Below, piece by piece: positions 20,439 to 28,221 of a DNA stretch of 64,000 nucleotides. Source of the stretch: Candidatus Aegiribacteria sp. MLS_C. Its GTDB lineage: Bacteria; Fermentibacterota; Fermentibacteria; Fermentibacterales; JCC-6. A model generated the notes under the pieces. That model worked only from the letters and a program-made list of their open reading frames with translations, was not told the origin of the DNA and did not search any database. A program made the position numbers and the translations under genes. Position 1 is the stretch's first letter. Each line of letters opens with the position of its first letter. The stretch is from positions 200,676 to 264,675 of the forward strand of contig LQBI01000002.1 of NCBI GenBank assembly GCA_002030045.1. Direction: 5' to 3'.

Positions 20439-22871
20439 TCAGATCTTCTTCCTCCTGAGCATGTTCGCGTTTGTCACCACGGTTATCGAACTCGTGGCCA
20501 TTGCGATCTCGGCCAGAACCGGGTGCATGTATCCGATCACTGCCAGGGGGATCATCACGATGTTGTAGAAAAACGCCCAGAACAGGTTCTGGCGTATCTT
20601 CCTGAAGGTTTCCCTGCTCAGCCTCACCGCTCTGGACACACCCTCGAGGTCCCCCCTTATGAGGGCGATGTCACTGGTCTCGATAGCAACGTCCGTCCCT
20701 GTTCCCAGGGCTATGCCCACGTCCGCTGCAGCCAGTGCTGGAGCGTCATTGATGCCGTCGCCGACGAAGACCACCTTCCCGTACCGTTCCCGCAGCTTTT
20801 CTATCTCCCGCACCTTGCCTTCGGGCAGCACTTCGGCAACCACGCTGCCTATTCCGGCTCCGTCCGCCACCGCCCGTGCGGTAACCGCATTGTCACCGCT
20901 TATCATCACCACTTCGAGCCCCATGTCCCTCAGTTCGGCCACCGTTCCTGAAGCACCCTCCTTCAGCGTATCGGCGACGCCCAGCATTCCCGCAGGTCTT
21001 CCGTCCAGGCTGACTATCATCGCTGTCCTGCCCTGTTCCTCGATCCCTCTGACCTCGCTCTCCAGTCCGGACAGATCCAGGCCTCTCTCCCTCATGAGAC
21101 CGATGGAGCCGACGATCAGCCTTCTGCCGTCAAGAAGGGCCTCAACGCCTCTTCCCCTCACCGCCCTGAAACCCTCGACCTCGCGAAGCGTCAGATCCCG
21201 CTCCTCCGCTTTCCTGACCACGGCACCGGCCAGAGGATGTTCGCTTCCCCTCTCGATGGAAGCGGTTATTCCGAGCAGTTCATTCTCGCCGAAACCTTCA
21301 CGGGGAACGATGTCCGTGACCACTGGGGATCCCCTTGTCAGCGTTCCGGTCTTGTCGAAGGCTATGACCCCTGCCTCCCTCATGGTCTGTATGGCGGCGC
21401 CCGTCCTGATCAGGATTCCCTTCTCGGCGCCCATTCCGCTGCCCACCATTATGGCCGTGGGAGTGGCCAGGCCGAGGGCGCAGGGACACGCGATGACGAA
21501 CACCGAGACCATGGCCACCAGCGCCAGGGTAAGGTTACCCAGACCCGGTTGCACCCAGGGGAGGAATTCACCCGCCCGAAGGATGCCGCCCATGACTTCC
21601 GGCATCAGCATGTGAATAAGGAAGGTGAGCAGCGCGGTGAGCATGACCGCCGGGACGAACCAGCCGGTGATCCTGTCCGCAAGGGCCTGTATGGGAACCC
21701 TGGAGGCCTGGGCCTCCTCCACCATTCTTATAACCTGCGCCAGGAAGGTCTCCTTTCCTATCCTGGTGGCCCTGACCCTTATGAGACCGTCACCGTTGAC
21801 AGTGGCCCCGATGACCTGGTCACCCGGCCCCTTTCTGACCGGCATGGATTCGCCGGTGGCCATCGATTCGTCGATGTGGGACTCGCCGGAAACCACCTCT
21901 CCGTCGGTGGGCACCTTGCCGCCCGGCCGTACTACCATGATGTCGCCCCTCTGCAGCTCGTCCACCGGAACCTCCACCTGACGTCCCTCCCTCTCGACGG
22001 TGGCGGCGAAGGCTCCCAGTTCCATCAGCTTCCTGATGGCCCTGGAGGCCTTTCCCTGGGCATTCTGCTCCACGTATCGGCCGGTGAGATGGAAGGCCAT
22101 TATCATGGCGGACACTCCGGCATAGCTGGTTATTGGGAAGACCAGGGAGGCCGGTCCCGTCAGGAAGGAGATACCGCTCCCCAGCATTATCAGGGTATCC
22201 ATGTTGGGATGCATGCCTGCGGCCGCCCTGAAACCGCTGAAGAAAGTGCTGCCCCCCGCCCATGCCAGGACCGGTAGGGCCAGTGCCATCATTCCCCACC
22301 TGTAGACATCCATGGAAGGCCATGCGACACCGAAAAGCATTTCGGGCACCATCCATACGACTGCCAGGGAGGTGAAGACCCATGCGGCGAGCATCCTCCT
22401 CCTGGATTCCCCGAGCTTCCTCTCCATACGGTCTTCCGTGAGATCGCCGGCGGTCCCGGCGACATGGTAGCCCGCCTTCTCCACCATACCCGCTATCTCC
22501 CCGGGGGTAACCACCGTATCCACGAACGTGACCGATGCCCTGTCGGTGGCGAGATTGACCGATGCCTGAAGAACGCCCTCCATGTTTTCCAGGGTCGATG
22601 CTATCGTCGCGGCGCAGGACGCGCAGGACATTCCCTCTATGTCCAGGGATATGGTCTCTGCGTGGACATCATATCCCGCTCCCCTCACCGCCTCTACCAG
22701 TGACAGAAGGTCGACCGGTCCATCAGTTGTGACCGTTGCCTTCTCCGAAGCCAGGCTGACAACGGCTTCCCTAACCCCTTCCACCTTCTGCAGCGCCCCG
22801 GTCACGTGCCTTACGCATGCCGCTCAGGTCATGCCCTCTATCGGCAGTACCAGCTTCCTTACGTCCTTCAT
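20439..22871 (-). CDS. copA: CopA-type copper P1B-ATPase with in-frame TGA at the first HMA Cys
   Basis: Read from ATG 22871 (GGAG site upstream), codon 16 is TGA (22826-22824), after which the frame stays open for 795 codons. The TGA sits in the first heavy-metal domain as GMT-TGA-AAC, exactly where GMTCAAC is expected. The second domain has an intact GMSCASC. Eight membrane helices, the CPC motif ([10 protein letters not shown]), the DKTGTLTRG phosphorylation site and [11 protein letters not shown] follow, so this is a Cu+/Ag+ export ATPase. Either selenocysteine is inserted at codon 16 or the first metal domain is lost to a nonsense codon. Restarting at GTG 22805 would give 788 residues but has only a weak ribosome-binding site. 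Confidence 0.85.
22790..22809 (-). promoter_or_regulatory. Candidate SECIS-like stem-loop downstream of the copA TGA
   Basis: On the minus strand, starting 14 nt after the TGA, six pairs with a single bulged C close a 7-nt loop that begins with G. The loop opens about 20 nt past the TGA, within the range reported for bacterial SECIS elements. An alternative fold nearer the TGA pairs 22821-22800. GC-rich sequence makes such hairpins easily, so this is weak support only. Confidence 0.2.
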
Positions 22872-23001
22872 TCGACTCTCCAGTGTCAGATGGCTCTGCG
22901 TTCAGCTTTGAAGACAGGATATGTCATGAAGACCGCCGGGTCAAATACCGCTGCGTGGATCGTGGAGGTCGCCTAAGGTGCCGGACCCCGGCGGGAAGCA
23001 A

Positions 23002-26000
23002 TCATCGGGTCAGGAGAGGTACCGTGAACCGGCGGTCCCCGGAGGGCATTCCGCGGACGAGGACTCCGTATATCCCGGAGGGAAGATGTCCGGTGTCCAG
23101 TGGTATGATGCTGTGTCCCGCCTCCAGTCCGCCGGTCTCCAGAGCCGCAGTGAGCCTCCCGTCCATGGAGTAGACCAGTGCTTCCAGTCCGCCGGGAACA
23201 CGCGAGGGGAGTTCCAGTGACAGGAATATGCATCCGGAGACGCTCCTGACGCTGCATGCCCCCTCTGCGGGGACTGTGACCGCCTGTCCTGCGACCGTCC
23301 GGTTGCCGGACTCGTCCAGCTCACCGTAGCGGTCATCGGGGTCCAGGACCACGGTCAGCGGCTCGTCGAAGGGTATTCCCCGGTCCAGGGGAATGGCCAC
23401 CGTGAACAGTCCGTCCCTGAGATCCAGGAATGCGGACCCGCAGGGCGTACCGTCAGACTCGAGAACCCTTACCTCAACGGGCCGGGAGACCCTTTCCTCC
23501 CCTGCGGAACGGATGCCGCCGGAACCGGTGATCTCCACTTCGGCTATCATTAACGGGCAGCCGTCCCCGAAGGTTGAGGTGTCTTCCGCGCGCCGGACCG
23601 ATCCCAGGTGCAGTTCCAGCCCCGGATCGAATGGTATGGAGTTGTAGAAGCCGCTCCTGAGTGCATTGTCCTGGTACATGTGCCACCCCCTGTCGTCGTA
23701 GAGGAATTCATCGAGGCTGTACAGGGTGGCTAACCCCGAGTAGTCCACATGAAGTACCTCGGGAACGCCGTTCCCGTCCAGGTCGCACAACGCGGGAGCG
23801 CTCCATCCGGCATCCCTTGACCAGGCGGGGAACCCGTCTATCATGGAGCTTCCCGTGGAGGGGCTGAATCCGCACAAGAGGGAAGAGTAGCACGAGAAGA
23901 CCGGCATTCCCGGCGCGCCTGAAGCGGAGAGGAGCCCCGAAACCGGCTGCGACCTTACGTAGTGCCCTCCCTCCTCCAGTATCGGGTTGAACTGGATGGT
24001 GTCGCTCACGAAGGAGGTCTCGCCGGTGGCGAGGTCCCATGCGTAAAGCAGTCCCTCTTTCAGGAACAGGCCGTCGTTGAGCATGTAAAGGAGGTCGAGG
24101 TCGGAGTCTCCGTCGGGGTCGCCAAGGGCCGGCCCGGGGATGTTGCCCCAGAAGTCGCTGCCTGGAAGCCAGTCCGTGGACCATGCGAGGGTCATCCGGC
24201 CGGGTCCTCCGTCCAGCTGGTAGACGAAGGCTTTCTTTTCCGTACCGCAGGGATCCACTGTGGAGGCGATGCCGGCCAGGTAGAACTCCCCGTCCTGCTC
24301 GGCAGAAGCGATGGTCCCGAAGACACGGGCGTATTCGCCGCCTGTGTCAAGCTCGTACAGGTTCCTGCGGGCGATCACCGCCGGCTCGTCATGTTCGAAA
24401 TCCACCACCGTGAGAGCGGTGCCCGCCCCTGTGCCGATGCTGGTGACGATGAGCTCCTCCAGCCCGTCGCAGTCGAAATCCACCGCCGTCGGCGAGTTGT
24501 AGAAGCAACTGAACAGGTCCAGCGGGAACTCCGGACCGAAGTCGGTCCACTGCCCGTCGGGGGTCATGCGCCAGACACAGAGCTGCGCATCAGTTCCGAA
24601 ATGGCCCCTCGTCCTGAGCGCAATCTCCAGGGACTCCCCGCCGTCGGCCTGGAAGAGGACGGGAGTCCCGGCCACCACTGGGGATGCCGCCTGCTGGTTC
24701 ACTCCGGTCTGTGCTATCTCGTCGCAGCTCCAGCAGCCTTCAAGCCGGCGGTATAGAAGGACGCCGACCCTCTCCTGTCCCTCTACCTCTATGCTCTTCT
24801 GGCAGGTGACCACGATCTCGTTGCCGGGGGTTCCGTCAACGTTTCCCACCGCGCAGCCGAGGGACCTGTCGAAATCGTATCCCGGAGGAGGTTCCAGTAC
24901 CGTGAAGGACGCGTCCCTCTCTATCAGGTATACACTGCCGAAGGATGTCGCCACCACCAGCTCAGGGTATCCGTCCATGTCAATATCGGCCACGGCGGGT
25001 CCGCCTCCGGGCGACCCCGAAAGCTGCAGAGGCCACCCGGGCACTGCCGGTCTGGAGGTGTTGGCAGTCACTTCCGCGGGCTCGGATTCCCTGCCTATCT
25101 CATCGATGGCGGTCACGAGCACCAGGTATTCGCGGCCGGGCTCCAGTCCCTCCACGGTGGCCTGGTTGACCGGTAGAGGGAGGGGAAAGACCCTGCTGAC
25201 GCTCCCGCCGTCCACCAGGTAGAGGTAGTAGGCCGTCGCCTCGGGGCATCCCTGGTGGTCCCAGACCAGGCTGACGGTCTCCTGGCCGGTCTCGTATATC
25301 CCTGCCCCAACCGGCGGCTGGATTGTGTCGGACTGCATGCCGCTGACCAGATCCACCTCCACCGTCCTTACCACAGAAGAACCCGCCTTTGAGAGCGCTA
25401 CGATGTCGAAAGTACACCTCGGGAATCCCTGCCGCAGCCAGCTGGACCGGGGTTCCACCGGCAGAACGGTCAGCCGGAGCTCTTCCTCGAGATCGATCAC
25501 GCCCCCGGGTTCAAGCTGCGGGATGAACAGGGTATCCGCCCTGAAAGGTTCCGGAGGACTCAGGTTGCCCACCGTAAGCCTGATATCCCTTCCCTCCCCC
25601 AGGCCGCTGTTCACCAGCAGAATATCGGAGATCCGCACCACGGCGCGGCCCCCGGTCGAGTTTTCCGCAAGGGGATCCATGCAGGTCACCTGGTACTGGT
25701 CGGAACATACCGTCAGCTTCAGATCGGAGACCCAGCGGCGGGGTCCGCCTCCTTCCATGGTGGAAAGGACCAGCCTGAACCCGATGTCCGAGTACTCAGG
25801 GACCCCCTTCTCTATCTCCACCACGAGGGGATCCAGCGACTCAACGGAGGAATCCGCCTCCACATCCGGGAAGAGGCAGGACCAGTCGTGAAGGGCCTTA
25901 ACGTACTGGCCGCCTGATACGATCTCTACGGTGGCGGATACTCCGGCCGCTTCCCTCCCGCCGCTGTTCAGGACCGCGGGGTAGATTTCCACGGTCTCCC

Positions 26001-28221
26001 CGGGATTGGCCCGGCCGTCGCCTCCGTCCGGGATCGTGTAGCCGGACAGCGAGAGCACCGGTGCGGACGAGGGCAGCACGTCCACCTGGACGGACACGGG
26101 TACGTAATTGCATACCGTAGAACCGCCCACGCCGGAAACCGACCTGGGCTTGGAAGCCGTGACCCACAGGTCCCCGTCACTGCAGTCGAAGACGGTGACG
26201 TCCTCGAAGAGGGTCGTCCCCCCTGGACCCGTATACTGGACGCAGAACACCTCGCTTTCCTTGTAGAGGCAGACGGTGGCTCCCGGAACGGGATCGGAGC
26301 CGTCGGTAACGGTCACCAGAAGGTCCGACGGCGCTCCCTCCACCATGACCATCGGCGGGAGGGTTACCTCAAGCTGAGTCGGTGTGTCCCTCCAGACGCG
26401 CATCAGGGGAGATCCCAGGAGGTTCAGGAGAACGAAGGATATCCCGTCAACGTTCTTCGATATCCTGTGGGCCTCCCCGAGGTAGCTGACCGGCCAGTGG
26501 GCGGTTTCTATCCCGTGGAGACCGGAGGTGTAACCGGTGTTGAAGAGTGCGTCAGCAAAGACGAAATAGGTGACCTTCTGGCTGAAAAGTCCGTACCTGG
26601 CGTTGGCGATCACGGCAGCCAGACCAGTGCCAGGGGATGTGAGCATACCGGCTTCCGCGAAACAGTCGGCGCCGTCGAAATGGCCGGGGCCGCAGCCCAG
26701 GGTCCACAGTATGGAGGGAACCGAGGCGTTCGACATGGTGGCGAAGTCCGAGTCCCACATGTACTGTCCCAGGCTGTTCTTGCCCGCAGTGGCCAGCTTG
26801 TGGGTCTCGGAATGGTCAGCGTGGAGAATGAGGTTGAAACCCCTGTCGAAGGCCTCCAGTGCGTTTGCCCTGCAGAGGTCTCCAGCCGGGAGCGAATGAG
26901 GGTAGTAGAGCTCCTCCGGCTCGTCAAGGTAGAGGGGCACGGCCCCTGAGGATTCGAAGAGCGCCCTGAGCTCCATCATGTCATCGGCGGCGGTTCCGCA
27001 TACATCGTTGGAGCCCATCATGAGGATACTCCTGCCGAATCCTTCCGGAGGGTCCTCCGGCCTTTCGTATAGAAGGGTCTTGGCAAGCATTGTGTTGACG
27101 TCTACCGGGTCGTTAACCGGCCATCGGCCGACGCACAGGTCGAGGTATCCGTTCTGGTAGCCGGTGCTCCACAACCCGTCACCGCTGACCCAGTCCCCGT
27201 CTATGTCCCCGTAGTAGTCGTCAGAAGGCATCTGGAAGGTAGGGAACGGGTATGTAACGTATGCCCAGCCGTTGCACTGCCGCACGGGGACGACGCCGTC
27301 GTCGCCTCCCAGAAGAACCGCCTGGGTCCCCCAGTACTGGTGCGCGTCGCGGATGAAGTTCCTTATTCTCTCAGGCGTGTCGCAGCCCGAATAGTTCTCC
27401 TGTATCCACTGGACGGTCCGGACCGCGGTGGCGATTCCCTCCCTGTTCCTGATGCTCGCCAGTTCGGTGAAGGATTCCTCGAGGCTGGAGTCGGTTATTA
27501 TCAGGAGGTCCACGCAGTCGCCCGTCGATGAGGGCCCGGCGGTGATCTCGAGGGGACGGCTCCGTCCGGCGAATGACACGGGCTGGGGGGACGAGTACAG
27601 GACCGTGTCCCCGGGATTGCATACCAGGGCCAGTATGCCTCTCTCACGCATCTCTCCGCTCCAGCGGTTCTCCCTGAGCGGGTGGAGCCTCTCCCTCGAA
27701 CAAACGGAGGGGTGAATGGACACATCCACTGAGGTGAGTACCTCCACGCAGCCGTCGGAAGGCCGGTACCGGACCGGGCTGGCGGTGAGGGTGGCCACCG
27801 AGAAGCCCATCGCCGATCCCTGGCGGGAAACGGATACCGGAGATGCCGGGAAGACGGAGTCCTCCCCGTAGATCCCCTGATCCGGCGGAATGAAGACGGA
27901 ATCGTCGGTCAGGCCCCTCTGCCTTGGCATGAGCAGGTAGCTGCCGGGAAGGGGAACCCATGTCTCCCCGAATATCTCGAGGTGGTCCACCTCGGTGTCC
28001 GGAGGAAGCAGGTAGGTCCGGGAGACCGCCGGCAGTAGCGGCTCACCCGGCATCCAGAGGCCGTCACCCCAGCCCCCGTAGCCATCAACGGAGAGCACGT
28101 GGTACTGAACGCCCTCCACTGACACCGTGTCAACAGTGACTTCAGATGGATCGGCGCAGGGCTGGAGGTCGACCTCGATGGGCAACATGGCCAGCAGCAT
28201 CGCCAGTGAAGCTGTATACAT
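23002..28221 (-). CDS. Giant secreted gingipain-like C25 peptidase with beta-propeller region
   Basis: The exported protein has 1739 residues, with a signal peptide (MYTASLAMLLAMLPIEV) and a C25 domain at about 235-560. The conserved lead-in VLLGGDDGVVPV and SDDYYGDIDG is present. Catalytic His470 is in LHADHSE and Cys510 in TLGCGPGHFD. Ig-like and fibronectin-like modules (about 620-1070) follow, then FG-GAP/VCBS-type calcium repeats (DIDMDGYPELVV, NVDGTPGNEIVV, DFDCDGLEELIV, GDPDGDSDLDLLY, DLDGNGVPEVLH) at about 1085-1500. A C-terminal FlgD-like tail (YSMDGRLTA, LPSGIYGVLV) ends the protein. It probably sits on or leaves the cell surface and cuts proteins. The gene is divergent from a serpin gene. 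Confidence 0.88.
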   Translation of the reverse strand: MYTASLAMLLAMLPIEVDLQPCADPSEVTVDTVSVEGVQYHVLSVDGYGGWGDGLWMPGEPLLPAVSRTYLLPPDTEVDHLEIFGETWVPLPGSYLLMPRQRGLTDDSVFIPPDQGIYGEDSVFPASPVSVSRQGSAMGFSVATLTASPVRYRPSDGCVEVLTSVDVSIHPSVCSRERLHPLRENRWSGEMRERGILALVCNPGDTVLYSSPQPVSFAGRSRPLEITAGPSSTGDCVDLLIITDSSLEESFTELASIRNREGIATAVRTVQWIQENYSGCDTPERIRNFIRDAHQYWGTQAVLLGGDDGVVPVRQCNGWAYVTYPFPTFQMPSDDYYGDIDGDWVSGDGLWSTGYQNGYLDLCVGRWPVNDPVDVNTMLAKTLLYERPEDPPEGFGRSILMMGSNDVCGTAADDMMELRALFESSGAVPLYLDEPEELYYPHSLPAGDLCRANALEAFDRGFNLILHADHSETHKLATAGKNSLGQYMWDSDFATMSNASVPSILWTLGCGPGHFDGADCFAEAGMLTSPGTGLAAVIANARYGLFSQKVTYFVFADALFNTGYTSGLHGIETAHWPVSYLGEAHRISKNVDGISFVLLNLLGSPLMRVWRDTPTQLEVTLPPMVMVEGAPSDLLVTVTDGSDPVPGATVCLYKESEVFCVQYTGPGGTTLFEDVTVFDCSDGDLWVTASKPRSVSGVGGSTVCNYVPVSVQVDVLPSSAPVLSLSGYTIPDGGDGRANPGETVEIYPAVLNSGGREAAGVSATVEIVSGGQYVKALHDWSCLFPDVEADSSVESLDPLVVEIEKGVPEYSDIGFRLVLSTMEGGGPRRWVSDLKLTVCSDQYQVTCMDPLAENSTGGRAVVRISDILLVNSGLGEGRDIRLTVGNLSPPEPFRADTLFIPQLEPGGVIDLEEELRLTVLPVEPRSSWLRQGFPRCTFDIVALSKAGSSVVRTVEVDLVSGMQSDTIQPPVGAGIYETGQETVSLVWDHQGCPEATAYYLYLVDGGSVSRVFPLPLPVNQATVEGLEPGREYLVLVTAIDEIGRESEPAEVTANTSRPAVPGWPLQLSGSPGGGPAVADIDMDGYPELVVATSFGSVYLIERDASFTVLEPPPGYDFDRSLGCAVGNVDGTPGNEIVVTCQKSIEVEGQERVGVLLYRRLEGCWSCDEIAQTGVNQQAASPVVAGTPVLFQADGGESLEIALRTRGHFGTDAQLCVWRMTPDGQWTDFGPEFPLDLFSCFYNSPTAVDFDCDGLEELIVTSIGTGAGTALTVVDFEHDEPAVIARRNLYELDTGGEYARVFGTIASAEQDGEFYLAGIASTVDPCGTEKKAFVYQLDGGPGRMTLAWSTDWLPGSDFWGNIPGPALGDPDGDSDLDLLYMLNDGLFLKEGLLYAWDLATGETSFVSDTIQFNPILEEGGHYVRSQPVSGLLSASGAPGMPVFSCYSSLLCGFSPSTGSSMIDGFPAWSRDAGWSAPALCDLDGNGVPEVLHVDYSGLATLYSLDEFLYDDRGWHMYQDNALRSGFYNSIPFDPGLELHLGSVRRAEDTSTFGDGCPLMIAEVEITGSGGIRSAGEERVSRPVEVRVLESDGTPCGSAFLDLRDGLFTVAIPLDRGIPFDEPLTVVLDPDDRYGELDESGNRTVAGQAVTVPAEGACSVRSVSGCIFLSLELPSRVPGGLEALVYSMDGRLTAALETGGLEAGHSIIPLDTGHLPSGIYGVLVRGMPSGDRRFTVPLLTR

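Follow-up and report, generated by a model that had tools for sequence, protein, structure and literature searches.

A CopA-type ATPase gene of Candidatus Aegiribacteria with an in-frame TGA at the first metal-binding cysteine, a probable selenoprotein copper pump

Results and Discussion

Organization of the copA Gene

On the minus strand of the window, by which we mean the whole stretch of 64,000 nucleotides that was analysed, there is a gene for a P1B-type ATPase of the CopA type whose reading frame contains a single internal TGA (Table 1). An earlier note on this DNA had placed the start at ATG 22871, with a GGAG upstream, and the TGA at codon 16, exactly on the first metal-binding Cys of the first metal-binding domain (HMA1). 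Both placements were confirmed from the sequence, and the protein around this codon reads IEGMT-U-AACVRHV, where U stands for selenocysteine (Sec). The reading frame is intact on both sides of the TGA, as the note had stated, and it is open from codon 16 to the TGA stop at 20439-20441. HMA1, described there as otherwise well conserved, gave a full-length match to the Pfam HMA model, with no decay on either side of the TGA, and the translation of HMA2 retains the GMSCASC motif that had been reported for it. A mechanical gene call would put the start at GTG 22805, and the metal motif of HMA1 would then be lost.

Table 1. Features of the copA locus, in coordinates of the window.
Feature	Position	Strand	Remarks
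P1B ATPase gene of the copA type, single in-frame TGA	20439..22871	-	811 codons including the stop
Codon 16, TGA, predicted to be read as selenocysteine	22824..22826	-	First Cys position of HMA1 (GMTUAAC)
HMA1 metal-binding domain, residues 9-69	22665..22847	-	Pfam PF00403, full-length match 9-68
HMA2 metal-binding domain, normal GMSCASC	22458..22649	-	Translation and Pfam HMA
Shine-Dalgarno-like GGAG before ATG 22871	22878..22881	-	Sequence ACTGGAGAGTCGAATG
Codon 23, GTG, at which translation might restart if it stopped at the TGA	22803..22805	-	Putative use as start
Candidate SECIS hairpin GCACGU-GACCGGG-GCG-C-UGC, weak	22790..22809	-	Loop with G first, beginning 20 nt past the TGA

The encoded protein matched TIGR01525, the heavy-metal P-type ATPase core, with 613.6 bits (cut-off 346) and TIGR01511 with 534.5 bits (cut-off 397), and the Pfam families detected in it were E1-E2_ATPase, Hydrolase, and HMA. 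Among solved structures, the nearest ones belong to P-type ATPases that export copper (3j09, E 4e-160). The translation contains two N-terminal HMA domains and the membrane motifs CPC, YN, and MxxSS, which are those of Cu(I) pumps. Judged by its sequence, the gene product is a P1B ATPase of the CopA type, with Cu(I) export as its predicted function. The domain order and the CPC, YN, and MxxSS motifs are the same as in the CopA Cu(I)-exporting P1B-1 ATPases of known structure (3j09, 3rfu), which differ in having Cys at the position of the TGA.

The window was also scanned for other TGA read-through candidates adjoining a Cys, and none besides copA had a convincing frame. Upstream of copA, at 23002-28221, there is an ORF of 1739 aa that resembles a secreted protein, possibly a C25-type peptidase.

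Selenocysteine Machinery in the Same Genome

The genome that carries the window is a draft of 2.98 Mb in 35 contigs, 97.65% complete. It was searched for selA, selB, selC, and selD, a check which had been named beforehand as able to refute the selenocysteine reading, and all four were found. selA (511 bits) and selB adjoin each other on contig C32, and the tRNA-Sec was detected with 75 bits, above the Rfam cut-off, with the anticodon TCA. selD has an in-frame TGA of its own at the usual Sec site, GPCAGUAGK (G000:C32, L055 1200-2500), so that the genome holds at least one further selenoprotein gene.

The Same TGA in Other CopA Genes

Among the best 80 CopA homologues in the named genome collection, Candidatus Aquicultor primus (L072) was the only one to share the TGA; the remaining ones had Cys at this position, or the motif was absent from the stretch examined. 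Ten of 36 Aquicultoria genomes, that of L072 included, encode a CopA of about 820 residues whose frame contains exactly one TGA, located at the same codon as in the window. The ten proteins share 70-96% pairwise identity, and a Shine-Dalgarno-like sequence precedes the start in nearly all of their genes. A strong tRNA-Sec match was obtained in eight of these carriers, and in the six Aquicultoria tRNA-Sec rechecked by ARAGORN the anticodon was always TCA. tRNA-Sec was not found in the other two (G385 and G398), and selA was also missing in G385; perhaps these MAGs are incomplete. In Aquicultor, a gene for a CsoR-like repressor (L072 2365-2640) lies divergent to the CopA gene with the TGA, which fits copper regulation.

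A search in a sample of 399 genomes from the phylum of G389 (Syntrophomonadaceae, Bacillota) yielded, among the matches listed, at least one more CopA with TGA at the same codon (G504, L278; MANKLIKIEGMTUAACARAV). In this genome a copZ-like gene (MKKKVLIEGMSCGHC) directly follows the CopA stop. No further CopA with this TGA appeared among the matches listed for 385 genomes, most of them from different families. An HMA match of G019 that carried a TGA was rejected, the TGA being a true stop after the domain. The homologue check that the earlier note had proposed for codon 16 thus gave at least 11 other genes with TGA, which belong to two other branches. In the phylum of the window, no other genome had TGA at this codon (42 searched, its own included), so that conservation of the TGA is judged from the other branches and not from the window gene itself.

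We placed 121 CopA proteins on a tree built by a quick method, with SH-aLRT support and no bootstrap. The distribution of the U label on it needs three changes, all three forced by branches with support of at least 95, and the nearest relatives of the window CopA all have Cys. On this tree, the same putative Cys-to-Sec exchange is seen in three separate branches of the CopA family.

RNA Element Downstream of the TGA

Bacterial SECIS hairpins lie in the zone of about 13 to 33 nt past the UGA. A stem-loop with a G-start loop about 20 nt downstream had been noticed in the window, and it can indeed be drawn, with an energy of -3.9 kcal/mol, but it is statistically unremarkable when compared with random codons, of which a fraction of 0.55 equals it (z +1.1). 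The selD gene of this genome, taken as a control, was likewise not separated from random codons by the SECIS energy tests. As neither the window hairpin nor this control stands out, energy alone decides nothing on SECIS, and the energy tests were given no weight in the interpretation.

The synonymous diversity of the ten Aquicultoria copA genes was calculated at invariant residues and compared with the value expected from the other occurrences of those amino acids in the gene. In codons +4 to +10 after the TGA, about 13-33 nt past it when counted in codons, the diversity was 0.16 vs 0.56 expected (p ~5e-6), which is the lowest run of the whole gene, this stretch having been picked after the profile was seen. 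For the pre-set stretch, +1 to +14, the values were 0.30 vs 0.52 (p ~2.5e-4). An internal control is offered by the peptide VRRVE, which is also present in HMA2 of the Aquicultoria CopA and there varies normally at synonymous sites. A constraint at this place suggests that the Aquicultoria genes contain an element acting at the RNA level, for example a SECIS. A stem around a GUGGAA loop fits the Aquicultoria copA genes, where the hairpin is clearer than in the window, and G504 and the window contribute a few compensatory changes.

Interpretation of the In-Frame TGA

Taking together the alignment of the in-frame UGA with the metal-binding Cys of homologues, the full Sec machinery, the TGA at the same codon in two other branches, the RNA-level constraint that follows it in Aquicultoria, and the published precedent with UxxC, which support the Sec-for-Cys reading already put forward in the earlier note, we consider it very probable that the window copA encodes a selenoprotein Cu(I) pump in which the UGA at codon 16 is read as Sec, giving UxxC in HMA1. 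The main rival is a plain nonsense change of TGC to TGA, or an error of assembly or sequencing, with the pump being made from GTG 22805 or later and having one HMA. It would agree with the draft state of the genome (35 contigs, read support unknown) and with the ORF downstream from GTG 22805, which is intact; a single HMA is common in good pumps, the TGA is not common to any relative in the phylum (42 searched, own included), and the SECIS of the window is weak. Nevertheless, the TGA falls exactly on the Sec-prone Cys: if codon 16 is assumed to have been TGC, a single base change could create TGA at 52 codons of the gene, and a random nonsense change would land on codon 16 about once in 52 times, or less. 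Against this rival there are also the complete Sec machinery of the genome, at least 11 genes from two other branches that carry TGA at this very codon, and the undecayed state of HMA1 on both sides, with a GC3 of 0.80 in the codons before the TGA vs 0.75 in the rest of the gene. We judge it very unlikely.

Even less credible, and in our opinion extremely unlikely, is the readthrough of UGA by a near-cognate tRNA, with Trp or Cys as the inserted residue, or the reassignment of TGA in this organism. The frame open across the TGA agrees with it, but the window copA itself terminates in TGA (20439-20441), which excludes genetic code 4 (TGA = Trp), the TCA anticodon belongs to a genuine tRNA-Sec, and the homologues have Cys at the position, not Trp. 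It is also conceivable, though unlikely, that two pump forms are made from the gene depending on selenium: the full-length UxxC pump if Sec is inserted at the UGA and, if it is not, a form restarted at the GTG that would lack the metal site of HMA1. This GTG, seven codons after the TGA, is present in all three branches, G504 included, and its codon choice is invariant in the ten Aquicultoria genes; the SECIS loop alone would also fit this pattern.

Possible Role of Selenocysteine in HMA1

For the selenoprotein reading of the window CopA, we infer actual insertion of Sec at codon 16. The Sec machinery of the bacterium would decode the UGA as selenocysteine, directed by a SECIS hairpin located just past it, and the metal site of HMA1 would become UxxC in place of CxxC. 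By the known chemistry of Sec, such a site would be expected to lose its proton at neutral pH, to bind Cu(I), Ag(I), or Hg(II) with greater strength, and to form a reversible selenenylsulfide. In the regulatory N-terminal domain, Sec may serve as a softer and stronger-binding ligand for soft metals such as Cu(I); alternatively, it may function as a selenenylsulfide redox switch. HMA2 and the membrane CPC site would carry out the ordinary pump work. In pumps of this kind, the main tasks of the N-terminal HMA domains are to regulate turnover and to take up metal delivered by a chaperone, so the exchange would be expected to tune regulation or capture, and not transport itself.

Sec is chiefly known for its catalytic role in redox chemistry. 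In the CopA proteins described here, it appears to stand in for a metal ligand of a transporter, and to do so repeatedly, always at one codon. These pumps could offer a testable system for the role of selenium in the handling of copper (or mercury, silver), and they mark a class of genes for which standard annotation puts the start in the wrong place.

Comparison with Known Selenoproteins

The Sec-type heavy-metal ATPase is already known, as a prediction. A cation-transporting ATPase E1-E2 with Sec in UxxC has been listed from ABB15669.1 and one GOS ocean sequence (PMC9312934, PMC13188914, PMC2398784), and by its motif and its TIGR01525 match the window CopA fits the selenoprotein family of this name as listed (PMC13188914). 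Both are heavy-metal P-type ATPases (TIGR01525/COG2217) with Sec in UxxC, the comparison having been made on the motif as given in the tables. The listed cases are single sequences, whereas the window CopA belongs, so far as our searches show, to a different phylum, and its related cases are recurrent and conserved. ABB15669 is presumably from Carboxydothermus hydrogenoformans. As far as the literature searched shows, the occurrence in this phylum is new, as are the repeated appearance of the TGA at one codon in three branches, its conservation in ten species, and the RNA constraint downstream; our literature search found no paper mentioning Aquicultor together with selenocysteine.

The note had mentioned Sec forms of HMA-type proteins, and their existence is borne out by the published tables and by the family NF041115 (UxxU_metal_bind). 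This metal-binding (seleno)protein model matched the HMA domains of the window with 93.4 bits, just below its cut-off of 95. It shares with them the HMA fold and Sec in the metal motif, but describes a small stand-alone UxxU protein, whereas the window has UxxC in a pump domain. A MerP-like Sec protein is present in the GOS table (PMC2398784). We observed a similar case in L184 (G357:C11:87387-87590), a lipoprotein-like, MerP-type stand-alone HMA with the motif GLTUGGC. Both are HMA-type proteins with Sec, as in the window, and in L184 the TGA is also at the first Cys position; they differ from the window CopA in being secreted or lipid-anchored single HMA proteins with no ATPase. The genome of L184 has a tRNA-Sec, whose anticodon is likewise TCA.
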